From NCBI RefSeq assembly GCF_000174435.1, contig NZ_ACJN02000005.1, positions 1 to 64,000 on the forward strand: a stretch of DNA of 64,000 bases, in the 5' to 3' direction. The DNA is from Desulfonatronospira thiodismutans ASO3-1. GTDB taxonomy: Bacteria > Desulfobacterota > Desulfovibrionia > Desulfovibrionales > Desulfonatronovibrionaceae. The notes under the pieces were generated by a model. The model saw only the letters and a program-made list of their open reading frames with translations. It did not search any database and had not been told where the DNA came from. The position numbers and the translations under genes were made by a program. Positions 3,760 through 48,647 of the stretch are shown here, in pieces; the first letter of the stretch is position 1, and every line of letters begins with the position of its first letter.

Positions 3760-4888
3760 TCACACCCCTTTACCCTTAACTGCCAGGTTCCTCACAAGCG
3801 CCCTGGTCCACTCATCCCTGCCGCTTAAAGTCGGGATTTTGGCATCCTTCAGTCTCTTGGCCAGCTCTACGTAGGTTATCCCCGGGTCTTTCTCCTTCTC
3901 AGATCTGATCCACTGGGTTACGGCTGCTTTGTCCGGCTTGCCGTTATGGATGCTGTTTCTTACAAACTCCAGGTCTGCATAAGCATAGTCGTCCAGGGGC
4001 GCAGGTTCTTGTGCTTCCTCCGGGATTGACTCAGCATCTGCAATATTGATCGATGGATGGCTGACCTGCATTTTCTCAAGGTCCAGGTCGCTCAGCTCAA
4101 CCCCTTCAGCTGGATCAGCCCCCAAATCATTTTCCAACTGCCCCAGCCTTTCCTCCAGATTCTTCATTACCTGCTGAATCTGGGTGATTGCTTTGTATAC
4201 CTGTACCATGGAGCCGTTTATTTCCGCAGTAAGCTTTAAAAGGGTGTCCTCCAGAGCATCGGCCAGGGTCTTGTTTTTTTCCTGGACTACAAGTTCAGCT
4301 TGGCTGGGCAAGGTAGCCTGCAGCTCCTGTTGGAGTTCGTCTTTTAGCTTAAGGAGCTGGGATTCTGAAAGATTAGAACCTTGAATACCTTTCTCACCTG
4401 GTTCATCCTTTAATCCATCCATCCCGTCATCCAATACTCCATCCATTGAATCATCCCTTAATCCAGTCATCCCTCCATCCACTGATCCATCCATCCCTTC
4501 ATCCGTTAATCCCTTAATCCGATCATCCGTTAATCCCTTCATCCCTTAATCCATCCATCCAACCATCCGTTAATCCATCCATCTGCAAATATGCTGCTTT
4601 AATCCTATTTTTCCAGATAGTTACCCACTCAATCAGTTTGTTATCTATGTTATCAGGGATGTCACCGTTTAGCATCATGCGGATCTGATCCACGGTGTAC
4701 CCTTGATCTTTAAGTGCAAAAATCAACACAAAAAAGTCTGTATATTCAGGGGCATACTTCATCAGCCTGCCTTCAGATGTGCCGAATACGAATTCTGACA
4801 ATTCTCGCTTACAAGAAATCAATGTTCTGTAATTGACATCAATTTCTTCCGCCATTTCGAGGAGTGTAACAAGCTTTTCCTTGCCCAT
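3760..4888 (-). pseudogene. HTH/MerR-like protein split in a low-complexity repeat
   Basis: The 5' part (4523-4888) encodes an N-terminal helix-turn-helix region (VTLLEMAEEIDVNYRTLISC) resembling MerR/excisionase-type proteins. It runs into repeats of DGLTDGWMDGLRDEG and stops at 4523. The 3' part (3760-4542, another frame) restarts in the same repeat and continues into a coiled-coil/acidic C-terminal half (ELQQELQATLPSQAELVVQ ... NSIHNGKPDKAAVTQWIR). The protein at 58576-59603 has the same N- and C-terminal halves joined in one frame, so this locus is one gene switched out of frame within its repeat tract. It lies between the att-like region and the secreted-protein gene. Confidence 0.75.
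4395..4585. repeat. Degenerate ATCC-type microsatellite inside coding region
   Basis: Dozens of ATCC/ATCCATCC units interspersed with CGTTA and CTTA spacers. It encodes alternating DG, DE and LTD residues on the minus strand. Tracts of this sort slip during replication. It coincides exactly with the frame break in the HTH-like gene. Confidence 0.8.
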
Positions 4889-5011: not shown

Positions 5012-5217
5012 TTGGTGGGTGAGGCCTCCAAAATGCTCTGGTCACTCTCACTTAAGCCGCCTTAACCGCCTGGATTTACACAACCCACCAGAACAAAAAC
5101 CCATCAGCAAAATTTTCACCTGCATATATCCCACCAGTCATCAGGCTGCAGTGTCAAAACTTTTCCATTTATATCAGAAGCTTAAGTGCCAAATTCATCC
5201 ACCTTATATCCCACCAG
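5012..5217. repeat. Iterons of an att-like region, Int-A copy
   Basis: One inverted unit (TTGGTGGG, 5012) and four direct units CCCA[C/T]CAG start at 5084, 5100, 5130 and 5210. The last lies 24 nt from the end of Int-A. The same five units occur at 59718, 59790, 59805, 59835 and 59915 next to Int-E with matching spacing. This is the expected geometry of integrase arm-binding sites beside an attachment site; the core site itself was not identified. Confidence 0.65.
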
Positions 5218-5233
5218 ACAACGGGTTTGAGTA

Positions 5234-6418
5234 TCAGCTTTTTTGCCCTGAACCACTCTCACCCTGTCCATTCTGGATGCTGGACCAAGCCAGTTCCGTG
5301 GCATCTCGTAGAGTATCTTGTGTCAAATGCGCATATCTTTGTGTCGTGGATATGTTTGAATGACCCAACAGCTTTTGCACCTCGTACAGGCTTCTGCCGG
5401 AGTTTACCAATAGACTTGCAAAGTTGTGCCGCAGGTCATGAATGCGTACATCCGGGATGCCTGCATTCTTGCGTACCCGGTCCCATGTATTATGGAAATG
5501 CTTTATAGGCCCTCCTGTTTTGGGGTTGGGGAAAACGTACTCTGAGCCGTTATGCTTTCTTTTCTCCAGAATCCTCAGGGCTCCCTGGGACAGGGGTATC
5601 GTCTTCCTGGTCTTGGCCTTGTTTCTTTCCGGGGGAATTGTCCACAGACCCTGCTTAAGATCCAGTTCCTGCCATGGCAGATTGACCACCTCGGACTTCC
5701 TGGCTCCGGTTAGGATCAACAGCTCGATGATGTCCGGTACTACCTGACTCTTGCAGTTTTTAAGCTCACCCAGGAGCCTCTTTGTTTCCTCGCTGCTCAG
5801 ATAGCGTTCCTTGCAGTTATTATCCTCAAGCCTGGAGATATGCCGGGCCGGGGTCTTCTCTATCACATCCCACTTCTCGGCCAGATTGAATATGTATTTG
5901 ACCAGGGCCATGTAGCGGTTCACCGTCCCCGGTTTGCAGCCTGCCCGCAAAAAGTTGGACTGGAACTGCTGCACATCATCCCTGGTTATTTCAGACATCT
6001 TCATATTTCCCCAAAGAGGCAGAACACGCAGTTCAAGCATTTTACTGTCCTGATCCCAGGACCTCTTGTGCACCTGGATGTAGGGGATGTACTGATCCCG
6101 GATGAATTCCTTGAAAGTCGGTGTATTGCGGTTTTTCTCGGCTTCATCCCTGGGATCAAACCCCATTGTGGTCTGGGACCTGATCTGCTTGGCTTTTTGT
6201 CTGGCTTCTTCCAAAGTGATGGAATCAACCGGAGCTATCCTGGCCTGTTTGAGGCGACCGAACTTGTCCCTGTATCTCTGGTAATAAGTGGACTTGCCAG
6301 TGCTGCGTACCTCCATAATAAAGCCGGGAACGTCCGAATCAAAATAGTCAACCTTGGCCTTGTTCCTGACCCTGGGTGGGTTGGAGACGAATGAGGGGGT
6401 TAGATGGATTTTGGGCAT
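5234..6418 (-). CDS. Tyrosine integrase Int-A (DUF4102-type)
   Basis: A 394-aa integrase. The N-terminal arm-binding domain (residues 1-95; DVPGFIMEVRSTGKSTYYQR) is typical of DUF4102 integrases of genomic islands. A core-binding domain covers about 100-190, and a catalytic domain follows with Arg240 (LTGARKSE), Lys near 269, HDLR at 327-330, His353 (LLGHS) and nucleophile Tyr362 (TQRYAHL). All catalytic residues are present, so it should be active. The start has AGGAGG on the minus strand (ggtgacctcctttt region). It is divergent from an XRE regulator and followed by iterons, as for Int-E, to which it is about 70-80% similar by eye. Confidence 0.95.
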   Translation of the reverse strand: MPKIHLTPSFVSNPPRVRNKAKVDYFDSDVPGFIMEVRSTGKSTYYQRYRDKFGRLKQARIAPVDSITLEEARQKAKQIRSQTTMGFDPRDEAEKNRNTPTFKEFIRDQYIPYIQVHKRSWDQDSKMLELRVLPLWGNMKMSEITRDDVQQFQSNFLRAGCKPGTVNRYMALVKYIFNLAEKWDVIEKTPARHISRLEDNNCKERYLSSEETKRLLGELKNCKSQVVPDIIELLILTGARKSEVVNLPWQELDLKQGLWTIPPERNKAKTRKTIPLSQGALRILEKRKHNGSEYVFPNPKTGGPIKHFHNTWDRVRKNAGIPDVRIHDLRHNFASLLVNSGRSLYEVQKLLGHSNISTTQRYAHLTQDTLRDATELAWSSIQNGQGESGSGQKS

Positions 6419-6972: not shown

Positions 6973-7103
6973 TTTTTGAATCCACACAAGGCCAAATAAC
7001 GGCCTTAGATAGCAAAAGATGAGGTAAGGGTCGGATAAAAGGCTGGAAGCTCTGTGAAAGGCTGTGAGGGCTATTCTTGAGGGTGTGAGAGTGAAAAGAC
7101 CGG
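6973..7103. repeat. Dispersed repeat R3, copy 1
   Basis: About 130 bp beginning GAATCCACACAAGGCC, with hairpin AAGGCC-7 nt-GGCCTT, then GGGTCGGATAAAAGGCTGGA and CTATTCTTGAGGGTGTGAG. A second full copy is at 62277-62395 and a partial copy at 7798-7862. All three abut toxin-antitoxin genes. Confidence 0.75.
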
Positions 7104-7140
7104 TCTACATCCTATTAACAACGAATTAAGGTCCAACCTG

Positions 7141-7167
7141 TTGACATTATAGCAGCTTTGCTATACA
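7141..7167 (+). promoter_or_regulatory. HigBA promoter with operator-like palindrome
   Basis: TTGACA (7141) and TATACA (7162) are separated by 15 nt. The perfect palindrome TATAGCA-gctt-TGCTATA (7148-7165) fills the spacer and overlaps the -10, as expected for autorepression by the XRE antitoxin. The short spacer makes the -10 assignment tentative. Confidence 0.55.
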
Positions 7168-7496: not shown

Positions 7497-7770
7497 GAGC
7501 ATAGAAGAAAAACACAGGGAGATGCTTGATCGTGATCCCGGGTACGCCCTTGAATATGCCCGCATGGAAGAAGAGTTCCAGTTTGTCCGGGAACTGATCC
7601 GGGCCAGAGTGCGGGCGGGAATGACTCAGCAACAGGTGGCAGATAAGATGGGAACCACACAGTCTACTGTTGCCAGGCTGGAATCCGGTGGTACTATGCC
7701 AAGCCTTAGGAGCCTTCAGAAATACGCCTGGGCTACCGGGAGCAAGGTCAAGATCTCGCTTGAGGGTTGA
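7489..7770 (+). CDS. HigA-type XRE antitoxin
   Basis: A 93-aa protein. The N-terminal 40 residues (SIEEKHREMLDRDPGYALEY) are the toxin-binding type, followed by an HTH (IRARVRAGMTQQQVADKMGT, TQSTVARLESG). The family neutralises the HigB toxin and binds its own operator, here the palindrome at 7148. It overlaps the toxin gene, so the two are translationally coupled. Confidence 0.9.
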   Translation: MGKSIEEKHREMLDRDPGYALEYARMEEEFQFVRELIRARVRAGMTQQQVADKMGTTQSTVARLESGGTMPSLRSLQKYAWATGSKVKISLEG

Positions 7771-9586: not shown

Positions 9587-9635
9587 GCAGGCGGGGTAAA
9601 TCTGTGTATAGCAGGATACTGGCAACATAATGTCA
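9587..9635. repeat. Dispersed repeat R1, partial copy
   Basis: GCAGGCGGGGTA, then TATAGCAGGATACTGGCAAC and ATAATGTCA, matching the central part of R1. It lies directly behind the XRE antitoxin gene at 9689. A fourth short match (CTCGCAACATAAGGGACAGG) is at about 11507. Confidence 0.55.
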
Positions 9636-9688
9636 CAGTTGGCTCCTCTGGCCGGTAATGCCGGTTATAAGGGCCGTTTTCATGGGTG

Positions 9689-9982
9689 TTATTCCAGAGA
9701 TTTTAGGGCTACATCCGGGGCTTTGGATACTATTGTAAGTAATGCAGCAGCTGGTCCGGACGGCTTACGTCTATGTTGTTCCCAGTTTTGCAAAGTTTTC
9801 ACGCTGACTCGCATCAACCGGGCAAATTCACTTTGTGACAGCCCGACTCTCTCGCGCAGGGATTTGACATCAGTTGAGCTTACTTCAAAACGGCGTGAAG
9901 GCTGAGATTCGCCATGGGAAATTTTTTTAGCTTCTTTAAGACTGCTTACCAGATCATCGAATAATTGTTGTTCCATAATCAT
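9689..9982 (-). CDS. XRE antitoxin (NadS/HigA-like)
   Basis: 97 aa. An HTH occupies residues 38-75 (VKSLRERVGLSQSEFARLMR, VSVKTLQNWEQ), followed by a short tail. The N-terminus (FDDLVSSLKEAKKI) is characteristic of antitoxins paired with RelE-like toxins. Its ATG overlaps the toxin stop (ATGA, 9979-9982). It probably represses the operon. Confidence 0.88.
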   Translation of the reverse strand: MIMEQQLFDDLVSSLKEAKKISHGESQPSRRFEVSSTDVKSLRERVGLSQSEFARLMRVSVKTLQNWEQHRRKPSGPAAALLTIVSKAPDVALKSLE

Positions 9983-10290
9983 AGCTCCTTCACAAGTTTA
10001 CGTAAGACAGCCAATTCCTTTGAGGACAAGGTGTCTTTTCTGCTTTTTGGATATGCGACAAGAAAATAAATATGATTTCTATCTTTCATCCAATAGTAAA
10101 TCACCCTAATGCCTCCGCTTTTCCCCCGTCCTTGCAGTGCATAGCGGATTTTTCTGAGTCCGCCCCCGCCCTTGATGAGATCGCCTCTTTCTGGATTCTC
10201 CGATAAGAGATTTTGTAGTCCCAAGTATTCTTCATCGTGCATAAATTCGGTGATCATTTGAGTAAAAGTAGGAGTTTCTATGAATACCAT
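9979..10290 (-). CDS. RelE/HigB2-type toxin
   Basis: 103 aa with the RelE-superfamily core: GGGGLRKIRYALQGRGKSGG, then IRVIYYW, then HIYFLVAYPKSRKDTLSSKE. Conserved basic residues and the terminal helix (LRKLVKEL) are present. It is expected to cleave mRNA on the ribosome. It is first in a two-gene operon with the XRE antitoxin. A short hairpin CCGCC-ttt-GGCGG lies just upstream, near 10305. Confidence 0.88.
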   Translation of the reverse strand: MVFIETPTFTQMITEFMHDEEYLGLQNLLSENPERGDLIKGGGGLRKIRYALQGRGKSGGIRVIYYWMKDRNHIYFLVAYPKSRKDTLSSKELAVLRKLVKEL

Positions 10291-10380
10291 AAAAAGATTC
10301 TATCCGCCTTTGGCGGAGAGGTCAAGTCAGATTGTTGTACCTTAACCGATGTTTTTCAATCCTTAATCATACCAGGGTGG

Positions 10381-11316
10381 CTATATTTGTCTATCGCATC
10401 CAGCTCCCAATCGCTTCATAGAATACAAACCCTCCACCCCGCCTACGGGCGTAAATTTCCGCTCATCCTTGGACCCCAGCAGGTGTTTGACCTGATCAAA
10501 TACCTCCTGCACAAAGTCCTTCCCGCCGATAACCCCGGAATCGGTAAAATACCGGCATCTGTACCTGAAGCGCTCTACACGGGAGATCTTGTAGCCCTTT
10601 TTCCTGGCCTTCTCCACAACTTTTTTTTCAATGGTCTTGCCTTTGCCCGCATCCACTGCGCCTGTTTCATAGACGAACTGCCTGTACTTGCGGACAATCT
10701 CTTTGGGGTCCAGCTCGTTCCATTCCTTGAGCCCGAAATCAATATCCAGCAGACCGTCTTTATTACCTGTCTGGGTATGATAACCAAGTGAACTCCAGCG
10801 GTAATTCTCCGGTTTCTTAACAATACCGGCACGGATAGGGTTTAAGTCTACATAAGCAAGCAGGTTCACCAGAGTACTGCCTTCCTGTACAATCATACTC
10901 TTAAACCGGCCACCCCAGAAAAATCCCTTCCGCCTGTGCTTTTTGTTGTAATACCTGGTAAAGTTCTGCTTGATGTCCTTCACATAGGCCCCAAGGCTGC
11001 AAAGCCTCTTCTTGACCTCAGCCATCCGGTCAGTAGGCATCTCGACCTTGTCACCATAATAGTCCTGCCATCTCTTGATGATGTCTGAGTTGGAAATTTC
11101 ATCCTCAGGGTGCATCCGGGCCACTAGGTGGAAATGGTTACCCATGACCGCAAACCCAAGCACGTCAACAAAGTAAAGCCTGCTCAGTCTTTTGATAAGC
11201 CCCAGCAGATAATCCTTGTCAGTATCCTTGATGGGCAGGCCGGGCAGGGCAGTACGTGATATGACATGGTAGACGGTTTGGCGGTCATTACGGATAAAAC
11301 GGGCTATGCGGGGCAT
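10381..11316 (-). CDS. REP-associated tyrosine transposase (long type)
   Basis: 311 aa. Y1-transposase fold with the HUH motif near residues 60-66 (FAVMGNHFHLVARM) and, further on, the catalytic-helix region (YVKDIKQNFTRYYNKKHRRK). It is followed by GGRFKSMIVQE and DLNPIRAGIV, the signature of RAYT proteins. A basic C-terminal extension (KTIEKKVVEKARKKGYK) distinguishes this longer type from the 264-aa RAYT at 22828. RAYTs cut REP hairpins as single strands. R1-type hairpins lie close by at 9587 and 11507. An AGG-rich site precedes the ATG. Confidence 0.9.
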   Translation of the reverse strand: MPRIARFIRNDRQTVYHVISRTALPGLPIKDTDKDYLLGLIKRLSRLYFVDVLGFAVMGNHFHLVARMHPEDEISNSDIIKRWQDYYGDKVEMPTDRMAEVKKRLCSLGAYVKDIKQNFTRYYNKKHRRKGFFWGGRFKSMIVQEGSTLVNLLAYVDLNPIRAGIVKKPENYRWSSLGYHTQTGNKDGLLDIDFGLKEWNELDPKEIVRKYRQFVYETGAVDAGKGKTIEKKVVEKARKKGYKISRVERFRYRCRYFTDSGVIGGKDFVQEVFDQVKHLLGSKDERKFTPVGGVEGLYSMKRLGAGCDRQI

Positions 11317-19097: not shown

Positions 19098-19379
19098 TTA
19101 TTGTGCTGCCCGATTTACGAGCTCGGTGAATTCTTCCAGGGACTGGGTTTTGTAAAACTTCCTGGTTAAGGTCCGCAGGCTATCGATGGAGTCTATAGAT
19201 TTGATTTTATCCTGGAGAGAATTCGGTAAAGGGCCATGGAAGTCTCCAGCTACATCTATAAGGGTTTCTTGGGTTGCTTTAAGTTCACTTTGCTTCTCCC
19301 ATATAGGTTTTTCTTGTAAAAACCTCTGTTCCGTCCTCTCATCCCCTTCTCTTCTAAACATTTCAGCTATGGTTCCCAT
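19098..19379 (-). CDS. Predicted internal tail protein of Rpn-1 (RpnS-like)
   Basis: In-frame start ATGGGAACC at 19379 preceded by CGAAGGGGAGGA with 5-6 nt spacing, giving 93 aa identical to the Rpn-1 C-terminus. In E. coli such internally started Rpn C-terminal proteins (RpnS) block the toxicity of the full-length nuclease. This is a prediction from the ribosome site and its conservation in all seven Rpn genes here. Confidence 0.6.
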   Translation of the reverse strand: MGTIAEMFRREGDERTEQRFLQEKPIWEKQSELKATQETLIDVAGDFHGPLPNSLQDKIKSIDSIDSLRTLTRKFYKTQSLEEFTELVNRAAQ

Positions 19380-20114
19380 ATATTCCTCCCCTTCGTCTAT
19401 CTCGGTTTCGGCAATCTTTTTTATATCAATATATTCCTTTTCGTCCCTGGTTACCTCCAGGTAGTGCAAAATCATTTGCACAAAATCAAGTAAGCGCGCC
19501 TTGGGATCAACCTTCTTTATCAATTGAAAGGCTTTTTGGACCCCTTGCATGAATTCTGGAGACCCGGAATACCGCCAGAGGGTAAAAAGAGCTTTTAAGG
19601 TTTCATCAAAATCGTAGTCTTCCGGGTCATCATTTACCGCATCATACAACAAAAAGTTAAAATCAGGAACGAAAATTTTGAAATCATCAGAGGGCAGGTC
19701 TACCAGGTCTGACACCTTGGTGGGCTTCCAGCCCTCCTCTGGATGAGCTATCAATATCGGGATAATAACCGGCAATCTGGTTTCACCGGTATTTTTCTGG
19801 TATTGCTCCCAGAACTCAAGAATATACCTCAGAAACTGCAGCGGGGTATTCTTCTTGAAGGTGCTCTTGTGCTCCAGGAGAAAAAATACCTTGGCTACAT
19901 ATAAGCCGCACTTGGTCGGCACGCTGACAACCAGGTCGGAATAGTAACCCTGCAGGCTCTTGGGCAGATATGAGTCCTTCTCGTAATAAATCTTATTAAA
20001 ATTAAGCTGCTTCACGATTTTTTCAGGAAGCATGGATTTTAATAAGCTGATGGCATTCAGCCGGTCCGACAAAAAGTACTTGATGGTGCTGTCGTGAATA
20101 TTTGTCGTGCTCAT
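19098..20114 (-). CDS. Rpn-family nuclease Rpn-1 (PD-(D/E)XK)
   Basis: 338 aa from MSTTNIHDSTIKYFL, aligned with the other Rpn starts. Nuclease motif: Asp60 (GYYSDLVVSV), Glu81-x-Lys83 (FFLLEHKS) and Gln93. The Rpn/YhgA-like family (PF04754) are Mg-dependent DNA nucleases that promote RecA-independent recombination and, in E. coli, act against phage. The tail is class A (HGPLPNSLQDKIKSIDSIDS ... YKTQSLEEF). GGGGAGGA followed by an in-frame ATG at 19379 predicts an internal 93-aa product. It is divergent from small recombinase TR-1. An IS66 element sits immediately after the stop. Confidence 0.9.
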   Translation of the reverse strand: MSTTNIHDSTIKYFLSDRLNAISLLKSMLPEKIVKQLNFNKIYYEKDSYLPKSLQGYYSDLVVSVPTKCGLYVAKVFFLLEHKSTFKKNTPLQFLRYILEFWEQYQKNTGETRLPVIIPILIAHPEEGWKPTKVSDLVDLPSDDFKIFVPDFNFLLYDAVNDDPEDYDFDETLKALFTLWRYSGSPEFMQGVQKAFQLIKKVDPKARLLDFVQMILHYLEVTRDEKEYIDIKKIAETEIDEGEEYMGTIAEMFRREGDERTEQRFLQEKPIWEKQSELKATQETLIDVAGDFHGPLPNSLQDKIKSIDSIDSLRTLTRKFYKTQSLEEFTELVNRAAQ

Positions 20115-20283
20115 ACTGGTATAATATTCCTTTTGAATCGGGTTGGCAAGCACTTTCACAAAGATCTCAACTTTGGGCCAAAAAATTGAGATATTTATTT
20201 TGGCATATTTCATATCATTTCAACAGGTTAATTGAAAATCGCCCCACAAGCACCTTCACAGCAAGAAAATTACATCAAATTTA

Positions 20284-27369: not shown

Positions 27370-27654
27370 TTAATTTTGTGCTGCTCGGTTTACGAGTTCT
27401 GTAAACTCATCAAGGGACTGGGTTTTATAGACCTTTCTAGTTAAGGTCCGCAGGTTATCAATAGAGTTTATAGATTTGATTTTATTCTGGAGAGAATTCG
27501 GTAAAGGGCCGTGACAGTCTCCAGCCACATCTATAAGGATTTCTTGAGTAGCCTTAATCTCTGCCCGCTCTTCCCATATAGGTTTCTCAAGTAATATTGC
27601 TTCCCTTGCCTCTTCCCTACCCTGCTGTTTCCACTGATCAGCTAAAGTTTCCAT
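27370..27654 (-). CDS. Predicted internal tail protein of Rpn-2 (RpnS-like)
   Basis: AAGGAGGTGA, a complete match to the anti-Shine-Dalgarno sequence, is followed by 7 nt and ATGGAAACTTTAGC at 27654, in frame with Rpn-2. This gives 94 aa (METLADQWKQQGREEAREAI ...). Intragenic antitoxin role inferred from E. coli RpnS. Confidence 0.65.
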   Translation of the reverse strand: METLADQWKQQGREEAREAILLEKPIWEERAEIKATQEILIDVAGDCHGPLPNSLQNKIKSINSIDNLRTLTRKVYKTQSLDEFTELVNRAAQN

Positions 27655-28413
27655 TATAGTCTCACCTCCTTCTGGAAGTAGTTCCAGAGCCTTTTTATAA
27701 TCTTCCTGGGTCAGATACCCAGTGCTTTTTACAAGATATCTAAAGAAAATATCTATGTACTCCAAGGCGGTTCTGTGACCCAAGGACTCAATCAGACCCC
27801 GTACCAGCCTTGGAGGAATTTCCTTTACACTGGGGTCGTTCTGATATTTTATTATCTCTACATAAAACTTGAGCAGGATCTTTTCCTGAACCTTGGCCTC
27901 ATCCATACCACGAACATTGAAAAAGGCAAAGGAAAAGTCCGGGATATAGACCTTGAAGGACTCAGAAGGCATTTCCACCAAGTAATGAAAAGATGAGCAC
28001 ATATTTCTGTCGTCCTCCTGGCCCTGGTAGATGACTATGGGAATAATCGGAGGCAGCTTACCATCCACAAGCATGTGCTGTTCCTGGAGATCCAGCCATT
28101 GTAGAGCCATGTATTTGAGTACCTGCACCCCAGTCAGAGGGTCAGGAGAACTCTTGTGCTCAAAGAGCAGGTAAATCTTGGCGAACTGGTTTTTATAACC
28201 AACCAATCGTACGCTGAAAACCAGGTCTGAATAGTGCTTCTTGAGCTTCTCATCTACATAAGTTGTAGGCTCCAGTCGAAGAGTATCCAGGTCAAAGCGC
28301 TTCTGGAGTTCTTCAGACATATGTTTTTTCAGGAAGTGCCTGGCATTATCCAGATTCTGGAAGATCTTCAGGAACAGTCCTTCGTGTGGAGCTTGGTTTC
28401 TTTTAGTCGACAT
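27370..28413 (-). CDS. Rpn-family nuclease Rpn-2
   Basis: 347 aa from MSTKRNQAPHEGLF, the start used by its close relative Rpn-5. Catalytic residues Asp63 (HYSDLVFSV), Glu85-x-Lys87 (YLLFEHKSS) and Gln97 are present. The class A tail (HGPLPNSLQNKIKSINSIDN ... YKTQSLDEF) follows a variable linker (QGREEAREAILLEKPI). The ATG overlaps an ATAGAT/ATCTAT inverted repeat, a possible operator. AGAAGGAGGTGA lies before an internal ATG at 27654. It is tandem with Rpn-3, each with its own terminator. Confidence 0.9.
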   Translation of the reverse strand: MSTKRNQAPHEGLFLKIFQNLDNARHFLKKHMSEELQKRFDLDTLRLEPTTYVDEKLKKHYSDLVFSVRLVGYKNQFAKIYLLFEHKSSPDPLTGVQVLKYMALQWLDLQEQHMLVDGKLPPIIPIVIYQGQEDDRNMCSSFHYLVEMPSESFKVYIPDFSFAFFNVRGMDEAKVQEKILLKFYVEIIKYQNDPSVKEIPPRLVRGLIESLGHRTALEYIDIFFRYLVKSTGYLTQEDYKKALELLPEGGETIMETLADQWKQQGREEAREAILLEKPIWEERAEIKATQEILIDVAGDCHGPLPNSLQNKIKSINSIDNLRTLTRKVYKTQSLDEFTELVNRAAQN

Positions 28414-28536
28414 ATAGATAATATAATCTATCCTGGAGGTGGGGGCAAGGGGAATTTCTGTAGGCGACAGAGAATTGGCCCCCTGAATATAACCAAAAAA
28501 CATAAAGCCGGCAATCAGGGGAATTATGCAGTAGCA

Positions 28537-28571
28537 AAAGCCACCCTATCCGCTAAAGGACAGAGTGGCTT
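28537..28571 (-). terminator. Terminator of Rpn-3
   Basis: Same hairpin as at 27310 (GCCACTCTGTCC ... GGATAGGGTGGC, then TTTTG) on the minus strand, 24 nt after the Rpn-3 stop. Confidence 0.85.
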
Positions 28572-28594
28572 TGGGGCTGGCAGGAAAGAAAAGG

Positions 28595-28879
28595 TTAATT
28601 CTGTGCTGCTCTATTTACGAGTTCGGTAAATTCTTCAAGGGACTGGGTTCTGAGCACCTTTCTGTTCAGAGCCCTTAAGTTCTCCAGAGATTGAATGGAT
28701 TTGATTTTCTCGTGGAGCGTACCAGGTAATGGGCCATATTGCTCGGTGGCGGCATCTATGAGATTTTCTTGGGTAGCTTCAAGCTTTGCGTGTTTCTCCC
28801 TTTCCACAAGCATTTTTTCCTGTTCCTGAATGAACTCGTTATACGCCTCTTGCCTTATCTGCTGTGCTGCTGTCTGCAT
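28595..28879 (-). CDS. Predicted internal tail protein of Rpn-3 (RpnS-like)
   Basis: GGGAGGTGA, 7 nt, ATGCAGACAGC at 28879 in frame with Rpn-3. The product would be 94 aa (MQTAAQQIRQEAYNEFIQEQ ...). Same position as in the other six genes. Confidence 0.65.
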   Translation of the reverse strand: MQTAAQQIRQEAYNEFIQEQEKMLVEREKHAKLEATQENLIDAATEQYGPLPGTLHEKIKSIQSLENLRALNRKVLRTQSLEEFTELVNRAAQN

Positions 28880-29620
28880 GGCTTCGTCACCTCCCGGCAA
28901 TCGCCTCGTGTACTCACCAAGCCTTTCAAGGCTGATAGGGCCTTGTACGGCTACATACTGGACAATTGCCTGTAAATATTGCTTAACCTTATCCTGGTCC
29001 GGGATAGTCTCCAACAGATCATATATCTCCTGAAGCTTGGTTTCAAGCTCAGGGTAGTGAATGTATTTGAAGAGCAAGTGAAAGATCTCCAAAATGGCGG
29101 TCGTCTTAAACTCATCGTCCTCCATGGAGGAGATGTCATGGATCATGTGCTTGAATTCCGGTACAAATGGCCTGAGCACTTCGGATGGCAAGTCGAACAG
29201 GTCTGAGAACTTACGGCTGAAATTCCACCTGCCCTTTCCATGGTATATAACCACCGGGATGATCACAGGCAAGTACCCTTGAAGCTGACCTTTTCTTTTT
29301 AGATCCATCCACTTCTGAACTTCGTAGTTCAGAATCTGAAGCCTGGTCAGAAACTCTGGAGTGCTTTTGTGCTCAAGCAGGATATAGATGTTTACATTTT
29401 CAGTATGTCCCTTGAGCTGCACTGTAACCATTACATCGGCATAATACTCCCTGTGCTCCTCGGATACAAACCCGCTCAAGTCAACCTGCAGGGTATCCAG
29501 ATCGAGTAGAGAGCAGATTTCTTCAGGGATATGATACTTGATGAACGCCTTTACAAACTCCGGGTCCTTGAAAAAATCTTTGAAGCACGCATTATGTGGA
29601 TTGGGTATTTCGAATGACAT
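28595..29620 (-). CDS. Rpn-family nuclease Rpn-3
   Basis: 341 aa. N-terminal type II (MSFEIPNPHNACFKDFF), shared with Rpn-7. Asp62 (YYADVMVTV), Glu83-x-Lys85 (ILLEHKS) and Gln95 form the PD-(D/E)XK site. Then a helical middle domain (LPSEVLRPFVPEFKHMIHDI; ELETKLQEIYDLLETI) and a class B tail (ATEQYGPLPGTLHEKIKSIQ ... LRTQSLEEF). GGGAGGTGA precedes an internal ATG at 28879. It is divergent from TR-2 across 230 bp holding a hairpin and a promoter. Confidence 0.92.
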   Translation of the reverse strand: MSFEIPNPHNACFKDFFKDPEFVKAFIKYHIPEEICSLLDLDTLQVDLSGFVSEEHREYYADVMVTVQLKGHTENVNIYILLEHKSTPEFLTRLQILNYEVQKWMDLKRKGQLQGYLPVIIPVVIYHGKGRWNFSRKFSDLFDLPSEVLRPFVPEFKHMIHDISSMEDDEFKTTAILEIFHLLFKYIHYPELETKLQEIYDLLETIPDQDKVKQYLQAIVQYVAVQGPISLERLGEYTRRLPGGDEAMQTAAQQIRQEAYNEFIQEQEKMLVEREKHAKLEATQENLIDAATEQYGPLPGTLHEKIKSIQSLENLRALNRKVLRTQSLEEFTELVNRAAQN

Positions 29621-32008: not shown

Positions 32009-32281
32009 TTAGTTCTGTGCTGCCCGATTTACAAGCTCGGTGAATTCTTCAAGGGACTGGGTTCTGAGCACCTTTCTGTTAAGAGCCCTTAAGTTCTCCA
32101 GAGATTGAATGGATTTAATTTTCTCGTGGACCATACCGGGTAGAGGGCCGTAGGCTTCTGTGGCGATATCTATGAGGGTTTCATGGGCATTTTTTAGTTC
32201 AGCTTGTTTCTCCCACACAGGTTTTTCCTTAATGGCCTTATTGTAACCTCGTTCTTCCAATACTTCTGCTGTGGTTCTCAC
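32009..32281 (-). CDS. Predicted internal tail protein of Rpn-4 (RpnS-like)
   Basis: AAAGGAGGAGA, 4-5 nt, GTGAGAACC at 32281, in frame, giving 90 aa. It uses GTG rather than ATG, the only such case among the seven. Confidence 0.55.
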   Translation of the reverse strand: MRTTAEVLEERGYNKAIKEKPVWEKQAELKNAHETLIDIATEAYGPLPGMVHEKIKSIQSLENLRALNRKVLRTQSLEEFTELVNRAAQN

Positions 32282-33010
32282 GGTTTCTCCTCCTTTGGGA
32301 AGATGTTTGACCTTCTCTTCTGCCTCTTCGGGCGTTTCGTCCGTGGCTATAAGCAAATACTTGATCAGGATTGCAAAGATTTCATGAGCCTCTTTGGCAT
32401 CCAAACCTTTAAACAACAGCTCTAAAGCTTCATATATCTGATCTCTTTTTTCCGGATAAAATATGTATTCAAGGACCAGGTGAAAAACCTCAAGGGTAAT
32501 GGAGGATTTGACCTTTTTCTTATTGATCACCGGGACTTCATGCAGGAGATGTTCAAACTTTGGAATATACTTCCTGTAATGCTCCGACGGTAGATTAAAG
32601 AGGTCAGAAAACTCCAAGCTATAATTCCACCTGGCTGTTCCGTGATAAAAGACCAGGGGAACTATGATCGGCAGGGTTCCGGTTTTCTTCTGGATAAAGC
32701 TCTGCCAGACTTCATTCATGTATTTGAATAGCTGGATCTTGGTCCAGGCATCCAGATCACTCTTGTGTTCTACCAATATGTATATTTCAGCGGGCTCTCC
32801 AGTAATCAATTCCAGGGTGATCACGATATCGGTCATGCTCTCCTTGAGATTGTCGCTGACATATGACCTGGAGGACACCTTAACAGTATCCAGGTTCATG
32901 TCCCTGGTAATCTCTTCCGGCAGATGATACCTTACGAAATCCCTTGCCACGGGCTCTCGCCCCAGTATCGCCCTGAAAGTGTGATCGTGGTATTTGCTTG
33001 TATCACTCAT
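32009..33010 (-). CDS. Rpn-family nuclease Rpn-4
   Basis: 333 aa from MSDTSKYHDHTFRAIL. Catalytic Asp61 (SMTDIVITLE), Glu81-x-Lys83 (ILVEHKSD) and Gln93. Class B tail (ATEAYGPLPGMVHEKIKSIQ). The N-terminal half is distinct from types I and II. AAAGGAGGAGA precedes an in-frame GTG at 32281. The upstream region keeps a decayed copy of the hairpin beside Rpn-3 (33078-33108), but the divergent small recombinase is replaced by the gene at 33342. Confidence 0.9.
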   Translation of the reverse strand: MSDTSKYHDHTFRAILGREPVARDFVRYHLPEEITRDMNLDTVKVSSRSYVSDNLKESMTDIVITLELITGEPAEIYILVEHKSDLDAWTKIQLFKYMNEVWQSFIQKKTGTLPIIVPLVFYHGTARWNYSLEFSDLFNLPSEHYRKYIPKFEHLLHEVPVINKKKVKSSITLEVFHLVLEYIFYPEKRDQIYEALELLFKGLDAKEAHEIFAILIKYLLIATDETPEEAEEKVKHLPKGGETVRTTAEVLEERGYNKAIKEKPVWEKQAELKNAHETLIDIATEAYGPLPGMVHEKIKSIQSLENLRALNRKVLRTQSLEEFTELVNRAAQN

Positions 33011-33341
33011 GAAGGGAGAATAAGGCATAGTCTTCAGGTAGGCAAGGGGAAATTTTAGGTGCCAGGGAAACAGGACCAAATGCCAACTTTTGTGTTAAAG
33101 TTGATATTCGTAAAATCACTTTAAAAAACTATAATGAAAACAGTATGTTAAATAACAACACTCTCACACCCACCTTCACAAATAAAAAATTACGTCAAGT
33201 TTGTTGAGTTAAACATACTACAGTTGGTATGCACCAAGACATAGAGGCAAACCTACCCACCACGCATAACACATCATGGTTGACACAGAGTGAGAGTTTC
33301 TTCTACAAGCTCACTCAAAACAAAACCGGAGGTAACCCTTT

Positions 33342-36824: not shown

Positions 36825-37379
36825 TTGGGTCGCAAACAAAGCCAACAAGTTGTCTGCCTGCACTGTGGCGAAGCCTTTTGTCCCGACTACCGAAACAGGG
36901 GCAAGCAAAAATACTGCTCCAAAGTGCCTTGTCGGGCAGCCAGTAAGAAAGCCAGTCAAAAGGCCTGGCTGGATAAGCCTGAAAACAGGGATTATTTCCG
37001 GGGGCCGGCCCATGTGGACAGGGTCCGGAACTGGAGAAAGCAAAATCCCGGATATGCCAGGCGCAAGACCACTGCTCCCAGGAAAACGTTACAAGATCAC
37101 TGCCTCCAAAAAAGCGTTGAAAATCAACGTGTTGAGGAAACGTTACAAGATCACTGGATCACGCAACCATCTGTTATTATAGGACTAATCTCCTCCTTAT
37201 GCGGGAGTGCGTTACAAGATGACATCGTCAGGGCCGCCCGGCAGATGTACACCCTGGGCTGTGACGTCATCAACAACCCCAAAGGAGGATTTCATGTACC
37301 AAAAGTATCCGATTCATCCCCAGAGACTGCGCAAGGTTCCCAGACAGTTCAGCTGGGTGGACCACAGGCTGGTTCGTGA
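36825..37379 (+). CDS. IS21 passenger: zinc-ribbon protein (copy 1)
   Basis: 184 aa from a TTG at 36825 (GGAGG 8 nt upstream). N-terminal zinc knuckles (CLHCGEAFCPDY, KQKYCSKVPCR), a basic stretch (AWLDKPENRDYF, RNWRKQNPGYARRK), then TLQDH units repeated at about 87, 107 and 126 and a helical end (DDIVRAARQMYTLGCDVI). At DNA level GTTACAAGAT recurs three times (about 37088, 37140, 37210). Its 3' end overlaps the next gene by 86 nt in another frame. A homologue lies at 979-1424. Function unknown. Confidence 0.75.
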   Translation: MGRKQSQQVVCLHCGEAFCPDYRNRGKQKYCSKVPCRAASKKASQKAWLDKPENRDYFRGPAHVDRVRNWRKQNPGYARRKTTAPRKTLQDHCLQKSVENQRVEETLQDHWITQPSVIIGLISSLCGSALQDDIVRAARQMYTLGCDVINNPKGGFHVPKVSDSSPETAQGSQTVQLGGPQAGS

Positions 37380-37683
37380 CGGTCATATTGAGAGGTTAAG
37401 CCATGCTGCAGCAGCCTTGTACCTGTTCCTGGTGACCGTGGGCGATCAGCAGGGGCTTAGCTACTACTCCGACCCCATTGTCATGCAGCGCCTGGGCATG
37501 GATGAAGTCACTTTGCAGCAGGCGCGCTTCAATCTGATCCAGGCTGACCTCATTGCCTGGAAGAAACCGCTTTATCAGGTTCTATCCATCCAGGTCCCAC
37601 CCGTAAATCAGGCCAGGACAGCACAGGCCGGGCCTGTGCACTTCTCAGACGTTCTCAAAAAACTTGCCGGGGGTAACACATGA
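37294..37683 (+). CDS. IS21-associated small HTH protein (copy 1)
   Basis: 129 aa from MYQKYPIHPQRLRKVPRQFS, with AAGGAGG before the ATG. Core: SWVDHRLVRDGHIERLSHAA, ALYLFLVTVGDQQGLSYYSD, VMQRLGMDEVTLQQARFNLI, a winged-helix replication-protein-like layout. It occurs ahead of istA in some IS21 elements. Its stop overlaps the istA start (ATGA). A regulatory or target-choice role is inference. Confidence 0.8.
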   Translation: MYQKYPIHPQRLRKVPRQFSWVDHRLVRDGHIERLSHAAAALYLFLVTVGDQQGLSYYSDPIVMQRLGMDEVTLQQARFNLIQADLIAWKKPLYQVLSIQVPPVNQARTAQAGPVHFSDVLKKLAGGNT

Positions 37684-39155
37684 TTGATTATGAGCTTTAT
37701 GCCAGAATAAAGCACTACCATGAACAAAAAGGACTTACCCCGGCCCAGATAGCAAAAGAACTGCAGCTGGATCCGCGTACAGTGGGCAAATGGCTCGAAG
37801 CAAAGCAGTTTCATCAAAGAAAGTCAGTAACAAGACCAAGCAAGCTTGATCCCTTCAAGGATACCATCGTCAGGATGCTGGAGGAGCACCCCTACACAGC
37901 CGTCCAGGTTTTGCGCAGCATCAAGGAGCAGGGCTATACAGGAGGCTCCTCCATTCTCAAGGAATACATAAGCAAAGTCAGGCCCAAAAGGTCCAGGGCC
38001 TTTTTAAGTCTGGCCTTTGCCCCAGGAGAGTGCGCCCAGGTTGACTGGGGAAATCACGGCTCCATCCAGGTGGGAGACAGCAGGCGCAATCTCAGCTTCT
38101 TTGTCATGGTCCTTTGCTACAGCAGGATGATGTATCTTGAGTTCACTGTCTCCCAAAGCATGGAGCACTTCCTGGCCTGTCATCAAAACGCCTTTGACGC
38201 ATTCGGGGCGGTCCCCAGAAAAATCATGGTGGACAACCTGAAATGTGCAGTGCTCAAGCACCCCTTTGGCCAAAAACCGGTTCTAAACCCCAAATATCTT
38301 GACTTTGCAAGGCACTGGGGTTTTGAGATCAGTGCCTGCGGAGTCAGAAAGCCCCATGAAAAAGGCCGGGTGGAGAATGCCATAGGTTATGTCAAAAAGA
38401 ACTTGCTGGCCGGCCTTGAACTGCCGGATTACCGGGCCATCAACCATTACGCCCGCCACTGGTGCAGGGCAACAGCCAATGTGCGTATCCATGCCCAGAC
38501 CGGCAAGAAGCCGGTGGACATGCTTGAAGAAGAAAGAGAGCACCTTTTGCCCCTGCCTGTTAACACCTATGATATCGGAGTCTTAACCCAGGTCCGGGCC
38601 TCGTCGCAGTTCCGGATCACCCTGGAGTCCAACCGCTATTCCGTGCCAGCCAGGTACGCAGGCAAACGCCTGACCTTGAAGACTTATCCTGATCGCTTAT
38701 GCATCTATGACGGCAACAATCTTGTGGCCAGGCATGTCCGCAGCTTTGATAAAAAAAGGGACATTGAAGACCCCGATCATGTCCAGGAGCTTATTGCCCA
38801 GCGCCGGGCAGCCAGGGATCAGCAATTGTTTTCCCGGTTCCTGGCTTTGTCCCCAAGAGCAAAGGATTACTTTTTTGAGTTGGAGAAAAAGCACTTGAAC
38901 ATCAAACACCATGTCCAGAAGATTGTAGCCTTAAGCGAAATCTATGGCTCTGAAGCCGTGTCCAGGGCCATGGACGACGCATTCACCTACAGTGCCTTCT
39001 CCTGTGAGTATGTAGCCAACATCCTGGAGCAAAGAGCCAGGACCATGCCCGCACCAGGAGCCCTGCATCTGACCAGGCGAGAGGATCTGCTGGATATTGA
39101 AGTCAAAGACCCTGATCTAAGTATTTACGACAAACCCAAGGAGAAAAACCCATGA
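37680..39155 (+). CDS. istA: IS21 transposase IstA (copy 1)
   Basis: 491 aa, full length. An N-terminal HTH (residues 10-45, YHEQKGLTPAQIAKELQLDP) precedes the rve catalytic core with Asp122 (AQVDWGNH), Asp185 (IMVDNLKC) and Glu232 (KGRVENAIGY); a C-terminal beta domain (RYSVPARYAGKRLTLKTYPD) follows. It carries out IS21 strand transfer with IstB. It overlaps istB by 4 nt. Confidence 0.96.
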   Translation: MIDYELYARIKHYHEQKGLTPAQIAKELQLDPRTVGKWLEAKQFHQRKSVTRPSKLDPFKDTIVRMLEEHPYTAVQVLRSIKEQGYTGGSSILKEYISKVRPKRSRAFLSLAFAPGECAQVDWGNHGSIQVGDSRRNLSFFVMVLCYSRMMYLEFTVSQSMEHFLACHQNAFDAFGAVPRKIMVDNLKCAVLKHPFGQKPVLNPKYLDFARHWGFEISACGVRKPHEKGRVENAIGYVKKNLLAGLELPDYRAINHYARHWCRATANVRIHAQTGKKPVDMLEEEREHLLPLPVNTYDIGVLTQVRASSQFRITLESNRYSVPARYAGKRLTLKTYPDRLCIYDGNNLVARHVRSFDKKRDIEDPDHVQELIAQRRAARDQQLFSRFLALSPRAKDYFFELEKKHLNIKHHVQKIVALSEIYGSEAVSRAMDDAFTYSAFSCEYVANILEQRARTMPAPGALHLTRREDLLDIEVKDPDLSIYDKPKEKNP

Positions 39156-39913
39156 CCAACAAACACCAAAGTGAGGTGCACAGGCTGGAAGAAAATCTCC
39201 AGCTGCTCAAGCTAACCTGTATAAAAGAGCAGTACAGGCCGGCGGCTGACAAGGCTGCCAGGCAGAACTGGGATCATCTGGGCTATCTGGCCAGGCTGGT
39301 CCAGGCAGAAGCAGATGCCAGGCATGATCGCTCCATCCAACGCCGTATCAGGATGGCCCGTTTCCCAGGCATAAAAACCATGGAGAACTTCGACTGGACA
39401 TGGCCGACCAAGATCAACCGCCCGGCCATCCAAAACCTCTTTCGCCTTGGATTTATGAAGGACAAGGCCAACATAATAATCCTCGGAGGAGTAGGCCTGG
39501 GCAAATCACACATAGCCACAGCCCTGGGTTACAGTGCATGCCTGGAAAAGCATTCTGTGCTGTTTGCCACCACCATAGATGTCATAAACACCCTCTCGGC
39601 CGCACAGGCTGCACACAAGCTCAAAATAGAGCTCAAGAAATATGTAAGTCCTGAACTGCTCATTCTGGATGAGCTTGGCTACCTGCCCATAGACAAGCAA
39701 GGTGCAGACCTGCTCTTCCAGGTCATAAGCCAGCGCTACGAACAAAAATCAACCATCCTGACCACCAACAGAGCCTTCAAGAAATGGCCCGAGGTGTTCA
39801 ACAACGACAGCACCCTGACCTCAGCCATGTTGGACAGACTTCTGCACCATGCCGAAACTATCCTCATTGAAGGCAAAAGCTATCGGATGAAAGACCAGGT
39901 TCAGGAACAATAG
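39152..39913 (+). CDS. istB: IS21 helper ATPase IstB (copy 1)
   Basis: 253 aa. AAA+ ATPase of the DnaC/IstB family: Walker A at 112-119 (GGVGLGKS), Walker B near 172 (LLILDELGYLPID), sensor region TILTTNRAFKKW and arginine-finger region LDRLLHHAETI. It selects target DNA for IstA. It is followed by the element end after about 110 bp containing GGCGGTTGC-type inverted repeats. Confidence 0.96.
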   Translation: MTNKHQSEVHRLEENLQLLKLTCIKEQYRPAADKAARQNWDHLGYLARLVQAEADARHDRSIQRRIRMARFPGIKTMENFDWTWPTKINRPAIQNLFRLGFMKDKANIIILGGVGLGKSHIATALGYSACLEKHSVLFATTIDVINTLSAAQAAHKLKIELKKYVSPELLILDELGYLPIDKQGADLLFQVISQRYEQKSTILTTNRAFKKWPEVFNNDSTLTSAMLDRLLHHAETILIEGKSYRMKDQVQEQ

Positions 39914-42371: not shown

Positions 42372-42851
42372 GTGAAAAATGCAACTTATTGAAAATGCCC
42401 GTGTTTATTGGGCTGAAAGTGGTTATTTTGGTGGGAGTTAAAAAAGAGGTCTCAACATGCCCTCAAAGCGGAAGTAAAAAAAGAAGGAAATTTTGTCTAT
42501 AATTCAAAAATAATACTTTTATTTCAAATAGTTAATGATAAAGTGAGGGCCATTTTCTGCCCTCAATATGCCCTCATACAGAAACCATTTTCTCAGATGT
42601 AGCCTACACCAGCTTTCTTTTTTCAAAAAGCCGGAAATATAGGTGGCCATCCTTTTGGTTAAGGACAGCCACCTTGGCAGTTAATGTTGAGTAGCCCGAT
42701 TTACAAGCTCAGTAAACTCTTCAAGGGACTGGGTTTTGTAAACCTTCCTGGTTAAAGTCCGCAGGTTATCAATGGAGTCTATGGATTTGATTTTATCCTG
42801 GAGAGACTTCGGCAAAGGGCCGTGGCAGTCCCCAGCCACATCTATGAGGGT
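42372..42851. repeat. 480-bp direct repeat DR1, copy 1
   Basis: Begins GTGAAAAATGCAACTTATTG and runs through a noncoding segment rich in TGCCCTCA, a terminator and the last ~57 codons of Rpn-5. The copy at 44877-45356 differs at only about four positions. Both copies begin by cutting an unrelated gene at the same base, so this is a mobile boundary. Confidence 0.88.
42638..42675 (-). terminator. Terminator of Rpn-5
   Basis: AGGTGGC(C)-ATCCTTTTGGTTAAGGA-GCCACCTT-type stem on the minus strand just after the Rpn-5 stop. The same structure is at 45143-45180 after Rpn-7, as part of DR1. Confidence 0.65.
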
Positions 42852-42977
42852 CTCTTTAGCGTTTTTTAGTTCGGCTTGCCTCTCCCATTTATCCTTTTCC
42901 TGCTTTATCCACTCTTCAGCCCGGTGTCTTTCTTTCTGAGCGCCCTGCTCCATCCACTGATCAGCTAAAGTTTCCAT
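42681..42977 (-). CDS. Predicted internal tail protein of Rpn-5 (RpnS-like)
   Basis: AAGGAGGTGA, 7 nt, ATGGAAACTTTAGC at 42977, in frame, 98 aa. Upstream region identical to Rpn-2's, apart from one base near the start. Confidence 0.65.
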   Translation of the reverse strand: METLADQWMEQGAQKERHRAEEWIKQEKDKWERQAELKNAKETLIDVAGDCHGPLPKSLQDKIKSIDSIDNLRTLTRKVYKTQSLEEFTELVNRATQH

Positions 42978-43736
42978 TATACTCTCACCTCCTTCTGGAA
43001 GTAGTTCCAGAGCCTTTTTATAGTCTTCCTGGGACAGATACCCAGTGCTTTTGACAAGATACCTAAAGAAAATCTCAATATACTCCAGGGCAGTTCTGTA
43101 ACCCAAGGACTCAATCAGACCCCGAACAAGCCTTGGAGGGATCTCCTTTACACTGGGGTCGTTCTGATATTTTATTATCTCTACATAAAACTTGAGCAGG
43201 ATCTTTTCCCGAACCTTGGCCTCATCCATACCACGGACGTTGAAAAAGGCAAAGGAAAAGTCCGGGATATAGACCTTGAAGGACTCAGAAGGCATTTCCA
43301 CAAGGTCATGGAAAGAAGAACACATATTTCTGTCGTCCTCCTGGCCCTGGTAGATGACTATGGGAATAATCGGAGGCAGCTTGCCATCCACAAGCATGTG
43401 CTGTTCCTGGAGATCAAGCCACTGAAGAGCCATGTACTTGAGTACCTGAACGCCTGTAAGTGGATCAGGAGAACTCTTGTGCTCAAAGAGAAGGTAAATC
43501 TTAGCGAACTGGTTTTTATAACCTATCAATCGTACGCTGAAAACCAGGTCCGAGTAGTGCTTCTTGAGCTTCTCGTCCACATAAGTTGTAGGTTCCAGTC
43601 GAAGAGTATCCAGGTCAAAGCGTTTCTGGAGTTCTTCAGACATATGTTTTTTCAGGAAGTGCCTGGCGTTATCCAGATTCTGGAATATCTTCAGGAACAG
43701 TCCTTCGTGTGGAGCTTGGTTTCTTTTAGTCGACAT
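42681..43736 (-). CDS. Rpn-family nuclease Rpn-5
   Basis: 351 aa, N-terminal type I (MSTKRNQAPHEGLF), over 95% identical to Rpn-2 through the nuclease and middle domains. Asp63, Glu85-x-Lys87 and Gln97 are intact. The linker differs from Rpn-2 (QGAQKERHRAEEWIKQEKDK). The class A tail ending NRATQH is identical to that of Rpn-7, though their nuclease halves are of different types. AGAAGGAGGTGA precedes an internal ATG at 42977. Confidence 0.92.
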   Translation of the reverse strand: MSTKRNQAPHEGLFLKIFQNLDNARHFLKKHMSEELQKRFDLDTLRLEPTTYVDEKLKKHYSDLVFSVRLIGYKNQFAKIYLLFEHKSSPDPLTGVQVLKYMALQWLDLQEQHMLVDGKLPPIIPIVIYQGQEDDRNMCSSFHDLVEMPSESFKVYIPDFSFAFFNVRGMDEAKVREKILLKFYVEIIKYQNDPSVKEIPPRLVRGLIESLGYRTALEYIEIFFRYLVKSTGYLSQEDYKKALELLPEGGESIMETLADQWMEQGAQKERHRAEEWIKQEKDKWERQAELKNAKETLIDVAGDCHGPLPKSLQDKIKSIDSIDNLRTLTRKVYKTQSLEEFTELVNRATQH

Positions 43737-44876: not shown

Positions 44877-45356
44877 GTGAAAAATGCAACTTATTGAAAA
44901 TGCCCGTGTTTATTGGGCTGAAAGTGGTTATTTTGGTGGGAGTTAAAAAAGAGGTCTCAACATGCCCTCAAAGCGGAAGTAAAAAAAGAAGGAAATTTTG
45001 TCTGTAATTCAAAAATAATACTTTTATTTCAAATAGTTAATGATAAAGTGAGGGCCATTTTCGGCCCTCAATATGCCCTCATACAGAAACCATTTTCTCA
45101 GATGTAGCCTACACCAGCTTTCTTTTTTCAAAAAGCCAGAAATATAGGTGGCCATCCTTGTGGTTAAGGACAGCCACCTTGGCAGTTAATGTTGAGTAGC
45201 CCGATTTACAAGCTCAGTAAACTCTTCAAGGGACTGGGTTTTGTAAACCTTCCTGGTTAAAGTCCGCAGGTTATCAATGGAGTCTATGGATTTGATTTTA
45301 TCCTGGAGAGACTTCGGCAAAGGGCCGTGGCAGTCCCCAGCCACATCTATGAGGGT
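44877..45356. repeat. 480-bp direct repeat DR1, copy 2
   Basis: Starts GTGAAAAATGCAACTTATTG, cutting the IS4-type gene, and ends inside Rpn-7 where its sequence departs from Rpn-5 (about 45357). Offset from copy 1 is exactly 2505 bp throughout, so there are no indels. Confidence 0.88.
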
Positions 45357-45470
45357 TTCTTGAGTAGCCTTAAGCTCCCCCCTTTTCTCACTTTCCAGAC
45401 GAACCTTTTCCTTTTCCTGCTTGAACTCATTATACATCTCTTGCCTTATCTGCTGTGCTGCTGTCTGCAT
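45186..45470 (-). CDS. Predicted internal tail protein of Rpn-7 (RpnS-like)
   Basis: GGGAGGTGA, 7 nt, ATGCAGACAGC at 45470, in frame; 94 aa. The first half is of Rpn-3 type and the second half of Rpn-5 type, so the predicted product is itself chimeric. Confidence 0.65.
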   Translation of the reverse strand: MQTAAQQIRQEMYNEFKQEKEKVRLESEKRGELKATQETLIDVAGDCHGPLPKSLQDKIKSIDSIDNLRTLTRKVYKTQSLEEFTELVNRATQH

Positions 45471-48229: not shown

Positions 48230-48647
48230 ATGTCAGTAAAACTACTAAAACAAAACGAAGTAAACAAAATGGAGTGCCCTAAAGGAAAAGAAAAGCTGAA
48301 GATCCATGACCAAAAGTGCAGGGGATTGATACTGGAGGTTAGACCTACAGGGATCAAGACATACTTTATGAGGTATAAGACGCTACGTGGACGCTATAAG
48401 CAAATAAAGCTCGGCAGAGCTACCGATCTGTCTGTGAATCAAGCCAGAAAGCTGGGACACAAGATACTTGGAGACGTGGCAATGGGGAAAGACCCGCAGC
48501 AAGAGAAGAAAGTGCTACAAAACGTGCCCACATTTGAAGAGTTCGTGTGGCATGAATATTTACCTTATATTGAATCATACAAAAAGTCCTGGAAAACAGA
48601 TGTCATCTTGCTGCGTAATCATCTGATACCCAAATTTGGAGGCATGC
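48230..48647 (+). pseudogene. Integrase Int-C, 5' part (split by IS21)
   Basis: MSVKLLKQNEVNKMECPKGK to HLIPKFGGM, the arm-binding domain and start of the core-binding domain of an Int-B paralogue. AAGGAG precedes the ATG. It is interrupted at 48648 by IS21 copy 2; the rest resumes at 52043. Without the element and one copy of CATGC the frame reads PKFGGMHMDQIKRDH, matching PKFGKLHLDQITRDD of Int-B. Confidence 0.95.

Follow-up and report, generated by a model that had tools for sequence, protein, structure and literature searches.

Repeat-coded linkers in a small family of integrase-linked MerR-fold proteins and a unit-sized frame break in one copy from Desulfonatronospira thiodismutans

A split gene and its relatives

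The gene at positions 3760–4888 on the minus strand of the window (the whole stretch of 64,000 nt from Desulfonatronospira thiodismutans ASO3-1 that was analyzed) probably belongs to a small family of mobile-element DNA-binding proteins, in which it is one of several decaying copies, and its repeat-coded linker seems to act as a tether, not as a tuned switch. We assign this reading a probability of about 0.55. The gene (copy 1) is represented by two halves in different frames that overlap by 20 nt within a repeat tract. The upstream half, ORF1 (4523–4888, minus strand, 121 aa), encodes an N-terminal MerR-fold winged helix (approximately residues 1–80), a further helical segment, and the first part of the repeat linker. 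The downstream half, ORF2 (3760–4542, minus strand, 260 aa), encodes the remaining linker and a coiled coil, followed at the C-terminus by a helical domain with the motif IPTLSGR..W.R..VRNL. Immediately upstream of this HTH gene, a tyrosine integrase is encoded (5234–6418, minus strand; Pfam Phage_integrase, E = 8e-33).

A paralogue, copy 2, is located at 58576–59603 on the minus strand. It combines an HTH, a linker encoded by a purine repeat with a period of 10 (59186–59315, minus strand, a degenerate decamer array resembling GAGGAGGAAG), and the C-terminal part. Together with its integrase gene (59939–61123, minus strand), the copy 2 locus spans positions 58576–61123, and the gene order is identical to that of the copy 1 locus. 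A third copy, intact and 307 aa long, is found on contig C1 of the same genome (452361–453281). Three more copies are present in a genome from another genus of the same family (G008), namely an intact copy of 341 aa on contig C33 and two fragments, of which the one on C80 is N-terminal and the one on C121 is C-terminal. Altogether, the family comprises six copies in two genomes, and the model presented here rests on these six sequences. A profile search with the C-terminal part in samples of the order and the phylum produced strong matches only in these two genomes, and no family member was found in plasmids, phages, IMG/VR, or GTDB contigs, collections in which records of the genome itself or of a very near one were possibly left out. 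Another genome (G029) has two related integrases; the gene for one ends close to the edge of its contig, and the other is truncated, with an unrelated ORF behind it.

Predicted architecture of the protein

According to an AlphaFold model of the intact C1 copy, which is of modest confidence (mean pLDDT 66.5, pTM 0.28), the protein starts with a winged helix (approximately residues 1–80) and ends with a confidently predicted C-terminal domain (residues 239–305). Between these more confident ends, residues 78–145, which include the repeat-coded part, have pLDDT values below 50 and are predicted to be disordered. At this level of confidence, a long helix is predicted at residues 149–204, after the disordered linker. 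The winged helix of the model aligns to MerR-family structures (PbrR, CadR, GlnR, and RacA) with Z scores of 8–9 (best 8.9), and the rmsd of the closest ones is about 1.7–2.4 over 61–68 residues; no RepA_N-like fold is among the structures retrieved with this model. Comparison of the HTH with solved structures by sequence gave no meaningful match. The best Pfam match of ORF1 is MerR_1, with an E-value slightly short of the cut-off (8e-4), and the RepA_N domain (PF06970) is absent from the Pfam matches of ORF1 at E-values up to 0.1. The C-terminal segment weakly resembles the large serine integrase YokA (E = 0.0015). On the basis of the model, the family protein is thus predicted to begin with a MerR-fold winged helix, which a disordered linker joins to a coiled coil, and to end in a small helical domain at the C-terminus. 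In RacA, a MerR-like DNA-binding domain is combined with a coiled coil. The MerR-fold DNA-binding domain is common to BldC, RacA, and the family protein, a likeness of fold rather than a demonstrated relationship between the sequences; unlike BldC and RacA, the family protein has a linker coded by repeats, ends in a helical domain, and is linked to an integrase.

The repeat tract and the frame break of copy 1

The repeat tract of copy 1 (about 4397–4580, minus strand) consists of 46 tetranucleotide words in unbroken phase, mostly arranged as octamers GGATNNNN on the coding strand. The sequence-only reading had placed the frame break in a degenerate ATCC microsatellite of about 190 bp. The break is indeed inside the repeat tract, but the tract is a degenerate array of the octamer GGATNNNN and not pure ATCC. 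Over 16 of 16 consecutive octamers, the GGAT half is free of mismatches (0/64), whereas the other half has 26 mismatches in 64 positions, a difference that depends on the octamer word boundary, which was picked post hoc. Pure ATCC runs reach at most 13 nt, that is, 3.25 units. Pure runs of period 4 that are at least 13 nt long occur only four times in 912 kb, two of them in linkers of the family, and none is 16 nt or longer. The octamers of copy 1 look like the intergenic GGATTNAG arrays of this genome. Such degenerate arrays of GGATTNAG or its complement, intergenic and at or in some genes, were observed on contig C1 at positions 26422, 382120, 392990, 520632, 194957, and 344693. The inference of selection from the kept phase of the tract was set aside because intergenic arrays hold their phase as well.

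In the tract region, frame 0 is free of stop codons up to gene position 363 and frame 1 is free of them after position 340. Therefore, the switch between frames is confined to about 20 nt (about 4525–4545, minus strand). The 8-nt register continues through this segment, indicating an indel of whole repeat units (octamers) instead of a one-base error, and the break sits at AAGGGATGAAGGGAT (gene position 341), the longest octamer duplication without mismatches. Since the octamer register is preserved, a sequencing error was rejected as the source of the break; a misassembly of whole repeat units is possible. Neither frame has acquired new stops, which suggests that the event was recent. Between copies 1 and 2, the C-terminal half shows a dN of 0.09 and a dS of 0.37, and thus the protein was under purifying selection. 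Copy 1 would have gained or lost whole repeat units, which would have put its halves out of frame, and we infer a loss of function: with its halves now in separate ORFs, the gene is most likely inactive or yields two separate polypeptides.

Decay versus switching

Copy 1 had been proposed on the basis of the bare sequence to be a contingency locus, in which slippage in the tract reversibly turns the C-terminal half on and off. Such a switch is expected to involve a unit-sized indel inside a repeat with a unit that is not a multiple of three, as found here, and the absence of stops from the downstream half implies that the break is either recent or under selection. In these respects, namely a coding repeat of non-triplet unit length and a frame broken within the tract, copy 1 is similar to the tetranucleotide contingency loci of Haemophilus influenzae. 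Unlike those loci, it has no long pure run, its octamer array varies in a position-specific manner, and no strain variation is known. In H. influenzae, chance alone is expected to give tetranucleotide runs of up to three units (PMC2651432). Frequent slippage requires long uninterrupted runs, so that the maximum of 13 nt in copy 1 makes a switch a weak explanation, and the repeats are too degenerate for slippage to be frequent. Furthermore, the intact copies, on C1 and in G008, carry unrelated repeats, and no in-frame variant of copy 1 is known, the searched collections being devoid of any close relative.

The state of the other copies also bears on this question. Copy 2 had been described as being read through its purine tract, which holds for the tract itself but not for the gene, the frame of which stops at 58629; its last approximately 25 residues are in another frame, following an apparent change of one nucleotide close to an A-run (about 58641). 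This loss of frame, either a genuine mutation or an artefact of sequencing, was not used as sole evidence. In G008, the C80 copy is cut after about residue 61, and the C121 copy lacks the N-terminal half. Thus, four of the six copies are broken, copy 1 alone within its tract and the other three outside any tract, so that the breakage looks like decay, which is a simpler account than a switch. A contingency locus is therefore highly improbable; rare switching of copy 1 is possible.

Repeat linkers in the family and in the genome

The proposal that the linker is a different low-complexity repeat in each paralogue was confirmed by the octamers of copy 1 and the purine decamers of copy 2, and the pattern extends to the intact copies. 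The linker periods are 4/8 in copy 1, 10 in copy 2, 4 (and 12) in the C1 copy, and 10 in the intact G008 copy, with 14 decamers. All four linkers are degenerate and have an unbroken phase and a sequence of their own, and all are purine-rich on the coding strand and hydrophilic as peptides. In a survey covering 0.95 Mb, about a fifth of the genome, they ranked 1, 2, 4, and 11 in short-period strength. A repeat linker was present in all four integrase-linked members that have a linker, versus none of the 32 loci with other MerR-type genes retrieved with the HTH profile, where the periodicity scores were at most 0.147, compared with 0.25–0.42 in the family linkers. By simple counting, the chance of this distribution is about 1 in 59,000, on the assumption of independent loci, which they are not. 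The periodicity of the DNA exceeded what the amino acid sequence requires in all four linkers (0 of 2000 synonymous shuffles in each case). In the intact copies, mismatches to the repeat consensus were somewhat rarer at the first codon position (6 of 46–47) than at the other positions (12–14), a mild signal at the protein level.

We infer that the linker serves as a hydrophilic tether. The arrays would be degenerate short tandem repeats with an independent origin and divergence in each lineage, and the exact sequence would be of little weight, with only the frame and the hydrophilic composition being kept. Similar degenerate tandem repeats with periods of 7, 8, and 14 are found at many sites of the genome, both intergenic and coding, and those inside kinase receiver domains indicate that the genome tolerates such repeats at permissive coding positions. 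Repeats of this kind may simply have filled the linker as a permissive site. Several features count against the tether. The occurrence in 4 of 4 versus 0 of 32 genes appears to be more regular than a neutral tether requires. The excess periodicity of the DNA would also argue against a mere tether; a diverged expansion would give the same signal. Finally, the periods of the family linkers are 4/8 and 10, whereas the other repeats of the genome mostly have periods of 6, 7, 8, or 14, and this difference, together with the joint exchange of HTH and linker described below, speaks against a tether.

The repeats outside the family are varied. Three hybrid histidine kinases encoded on contig C1 (at about 340876, 344581, and 752926; loci L061 and L081) have long degenerate-repeat mosaics inserted in frame in their receiver domains, each flanked by the helix with TRRIR or TQRIR on one side and by the PIIA.TA strand on the other. 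Other sites on C1 carry arrays with a period of 7 or 14 (CTCCATG, TCTGACC, AGGAACC). In the window, two adjacent arrays, one of period 19 (CATTCTTGCCCTTCTTGTC) and one of period 12 (TGTGCACTCTGT), are found at 2223–2342 amid overlapping open frames on the plus strand. As with the short tandem heptamer repeats of Beggiatoaceae and Cyanobacteria (PMC4679880), many short arrays are distributed over the genome; unlike those repeats, the arrays described here are more degenerate and are strongest within one gene family.

Joint exchange of winged helix and linker

Both ends of the protein had been considered conserved between copies 1 and 2, and both are, but unequally: the amino acid identity is 84% in the C-terminal part and 34% in the HTH, with 77% for the integrases. 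The HTH of copy 2 is nearest to the G008 HTH (47.5%), and that of copy 1 is nearest to those of C80 (47%) and C1 (44%). The nucleotide identity of copies 1 and 2 drops at the start codon and recovers just past the tract; thus, HTH and linker seem to move together. In addition, the linker period tracks the type of HTH (4 in copies 1 and 3, 10 in copy 2 and G008) and not the C-terminus or the integrase, a pairing that has a 1 in 3 probability by chance with four copies.

These modules can be read differently, with the linker DNA being an array of sites for the winged helix of the very protein that it encodes, that is, an origin, a partition site, or an autoregulation site within the gene. MerR-like protomers would then line the array head to tail, one per 8–10 bp. 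We consider this reading tentative and less likely than the tether. It would account for the non-triplet periods (8 and 10) that recur at one position in four members belonging to two genera, for a periodicity of the DNA beyond the need of the protein, for the coupling of period and HTH type, and for the absence of repeat linkers from the 32 related MerR loci. BldC, which is MerR-like, binds 9-bp direct repeats of the form AATTXXXX(C) head to tail (PMC5859096), and the invariant GGAT in 16 of 16 octamers, with the other half free, recalls this consensus for one protomer. One molecule of RdfS occupies about 10 bp (PMC11963761). A matching layout is that of the pSK41 Rep protein (319 aa), the winged-helix N-terminal domain of which binds origin sites within rep; the origin DNA encodes the linker (PMC5703833). 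Replication-type genes are located close to several family members and include those for a DnaB/RepA-like AAA ATPase, D5/VapE-type primases, DNA polymerase A, and a CHC2 zinc finger. However, the period varies among the members, and a strict 4-nt phase suits no usual footprint. The tract has no AT-rich unwinding stretch, no DnaA box was found, and a scan of the upstream region detected neither DnaA boxes nor linker motifs. The decamers of copy 2 and G008 are not significantly alike, being no more similar than column-shuffled ones (681 of 5000), the pairing of period and HTH type carries the chance level given above, and similar octamers occur elsewhere in the genome, away from the gene family.

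The RepA_N initiators of the pSK41 type from Staphylococcus plasmids and the family proteins share a length of about 320 aa, an N-terminal winged helix, a linker encoded by in-gene repeat DNA, a separate C-terminal domain, and replication genes in the vicinity. Unlike these initiators, the family has a MerR-type and not a RepA_N domain, its repeats are short, degenerate, and of varying period, and it is linked to an integrase; binding of the repeats is putative. The extended version, in which this MerR-fold family carries its own putative cis-acting repeat site in the linker DNA and HTH and repeats form a single specificity cassette that is swapped, with the C-terminal half and the integrase staying in place, appears rather unlikely.

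The adjacent integrase

The winged-helix gene adjoins an integrase gene at the five family loci at which the downstream sequence is whole enough to tell. At four loci, pairs of direct repeats 79–80 bp apart are present in the gap between integrase and HTH gene: in the window at 5125–5236 (two direct repeats 80 bp apart, TATATCCCACCAG...) and at 59828–59922, and in addition at 7511–7611 of locus L004 and 7051–7151 of locus L038. Their sequence is partly different at each of the four loci, and they are perhaps arm sites of the integrase. At locus L038, on contig C33 of G008, a 274-aa protein without a Pfam or PHROG match is encoded two genes downstream of the intact copy (9631–10455).

This association would also be consistent with the HTH protein being a recombination directionality factor of the adjacent integrase, similar to an excisionase, with the coiled coil and the C-terminal domain as accessory parts; the split of copy 1 may then leave the winged helix working alone. 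Besides the adjacency at five loci, the direct repeats fit such a role, as one of them, CTGGTGGGATAT on the coding strand, resembles the IntS arm consensus TGKTGGTATC. RdfS-type factors, too, are winged-helix proteins from integrase-carrying mobile elements. However, with 307–341 aa the family proteins are several times the size of RdfS, 21 residues of which make up 24% of its length, and they have several domains, including a coiled coil and a C-terminal domain that RdfS lacks, in place of a small single-domain winged helix. Moreover, the best Pfam match is MerR_1, and no attachment core was identified. We regard a directionality factor as improbable.

Other repeated units were observed in the window. 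Two nearly identical two-gene units (36825–39913 and 48709–51933), which encode proteins of about 490 aa and 253 aa, the latter with an ATP-binding motif, are IS21-like, and the second one apparently splits an integrase gene (48230–48652 and 52044–52790). Related genes for proteins of 341–377 aa with very similar C-terminal ends are located at 19098–20213, 27370–29620, 32009–33079, 42681–43736, and 45186–46211; they probably represent a nuclease-type, transposase-like family repeated along the contig.

Implications

It is unusual that all relatives that have a linker build it from short repeats and that each uses its own set. If the linker is only a tether, the family would illustrate that degenerate tandem repeats provide disordered linkers in bacterial proteins and that a unit-sized indel can split such a gene. 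If the repeats are binding sites, the family would be a MerR-type counterpart of the RepA_N plasmids with their in-gene origins, and HTH and site would form a swappable cassette. The case of copy 1 also cautions against labelling every broken repeat-bearing gene as phase-variable.
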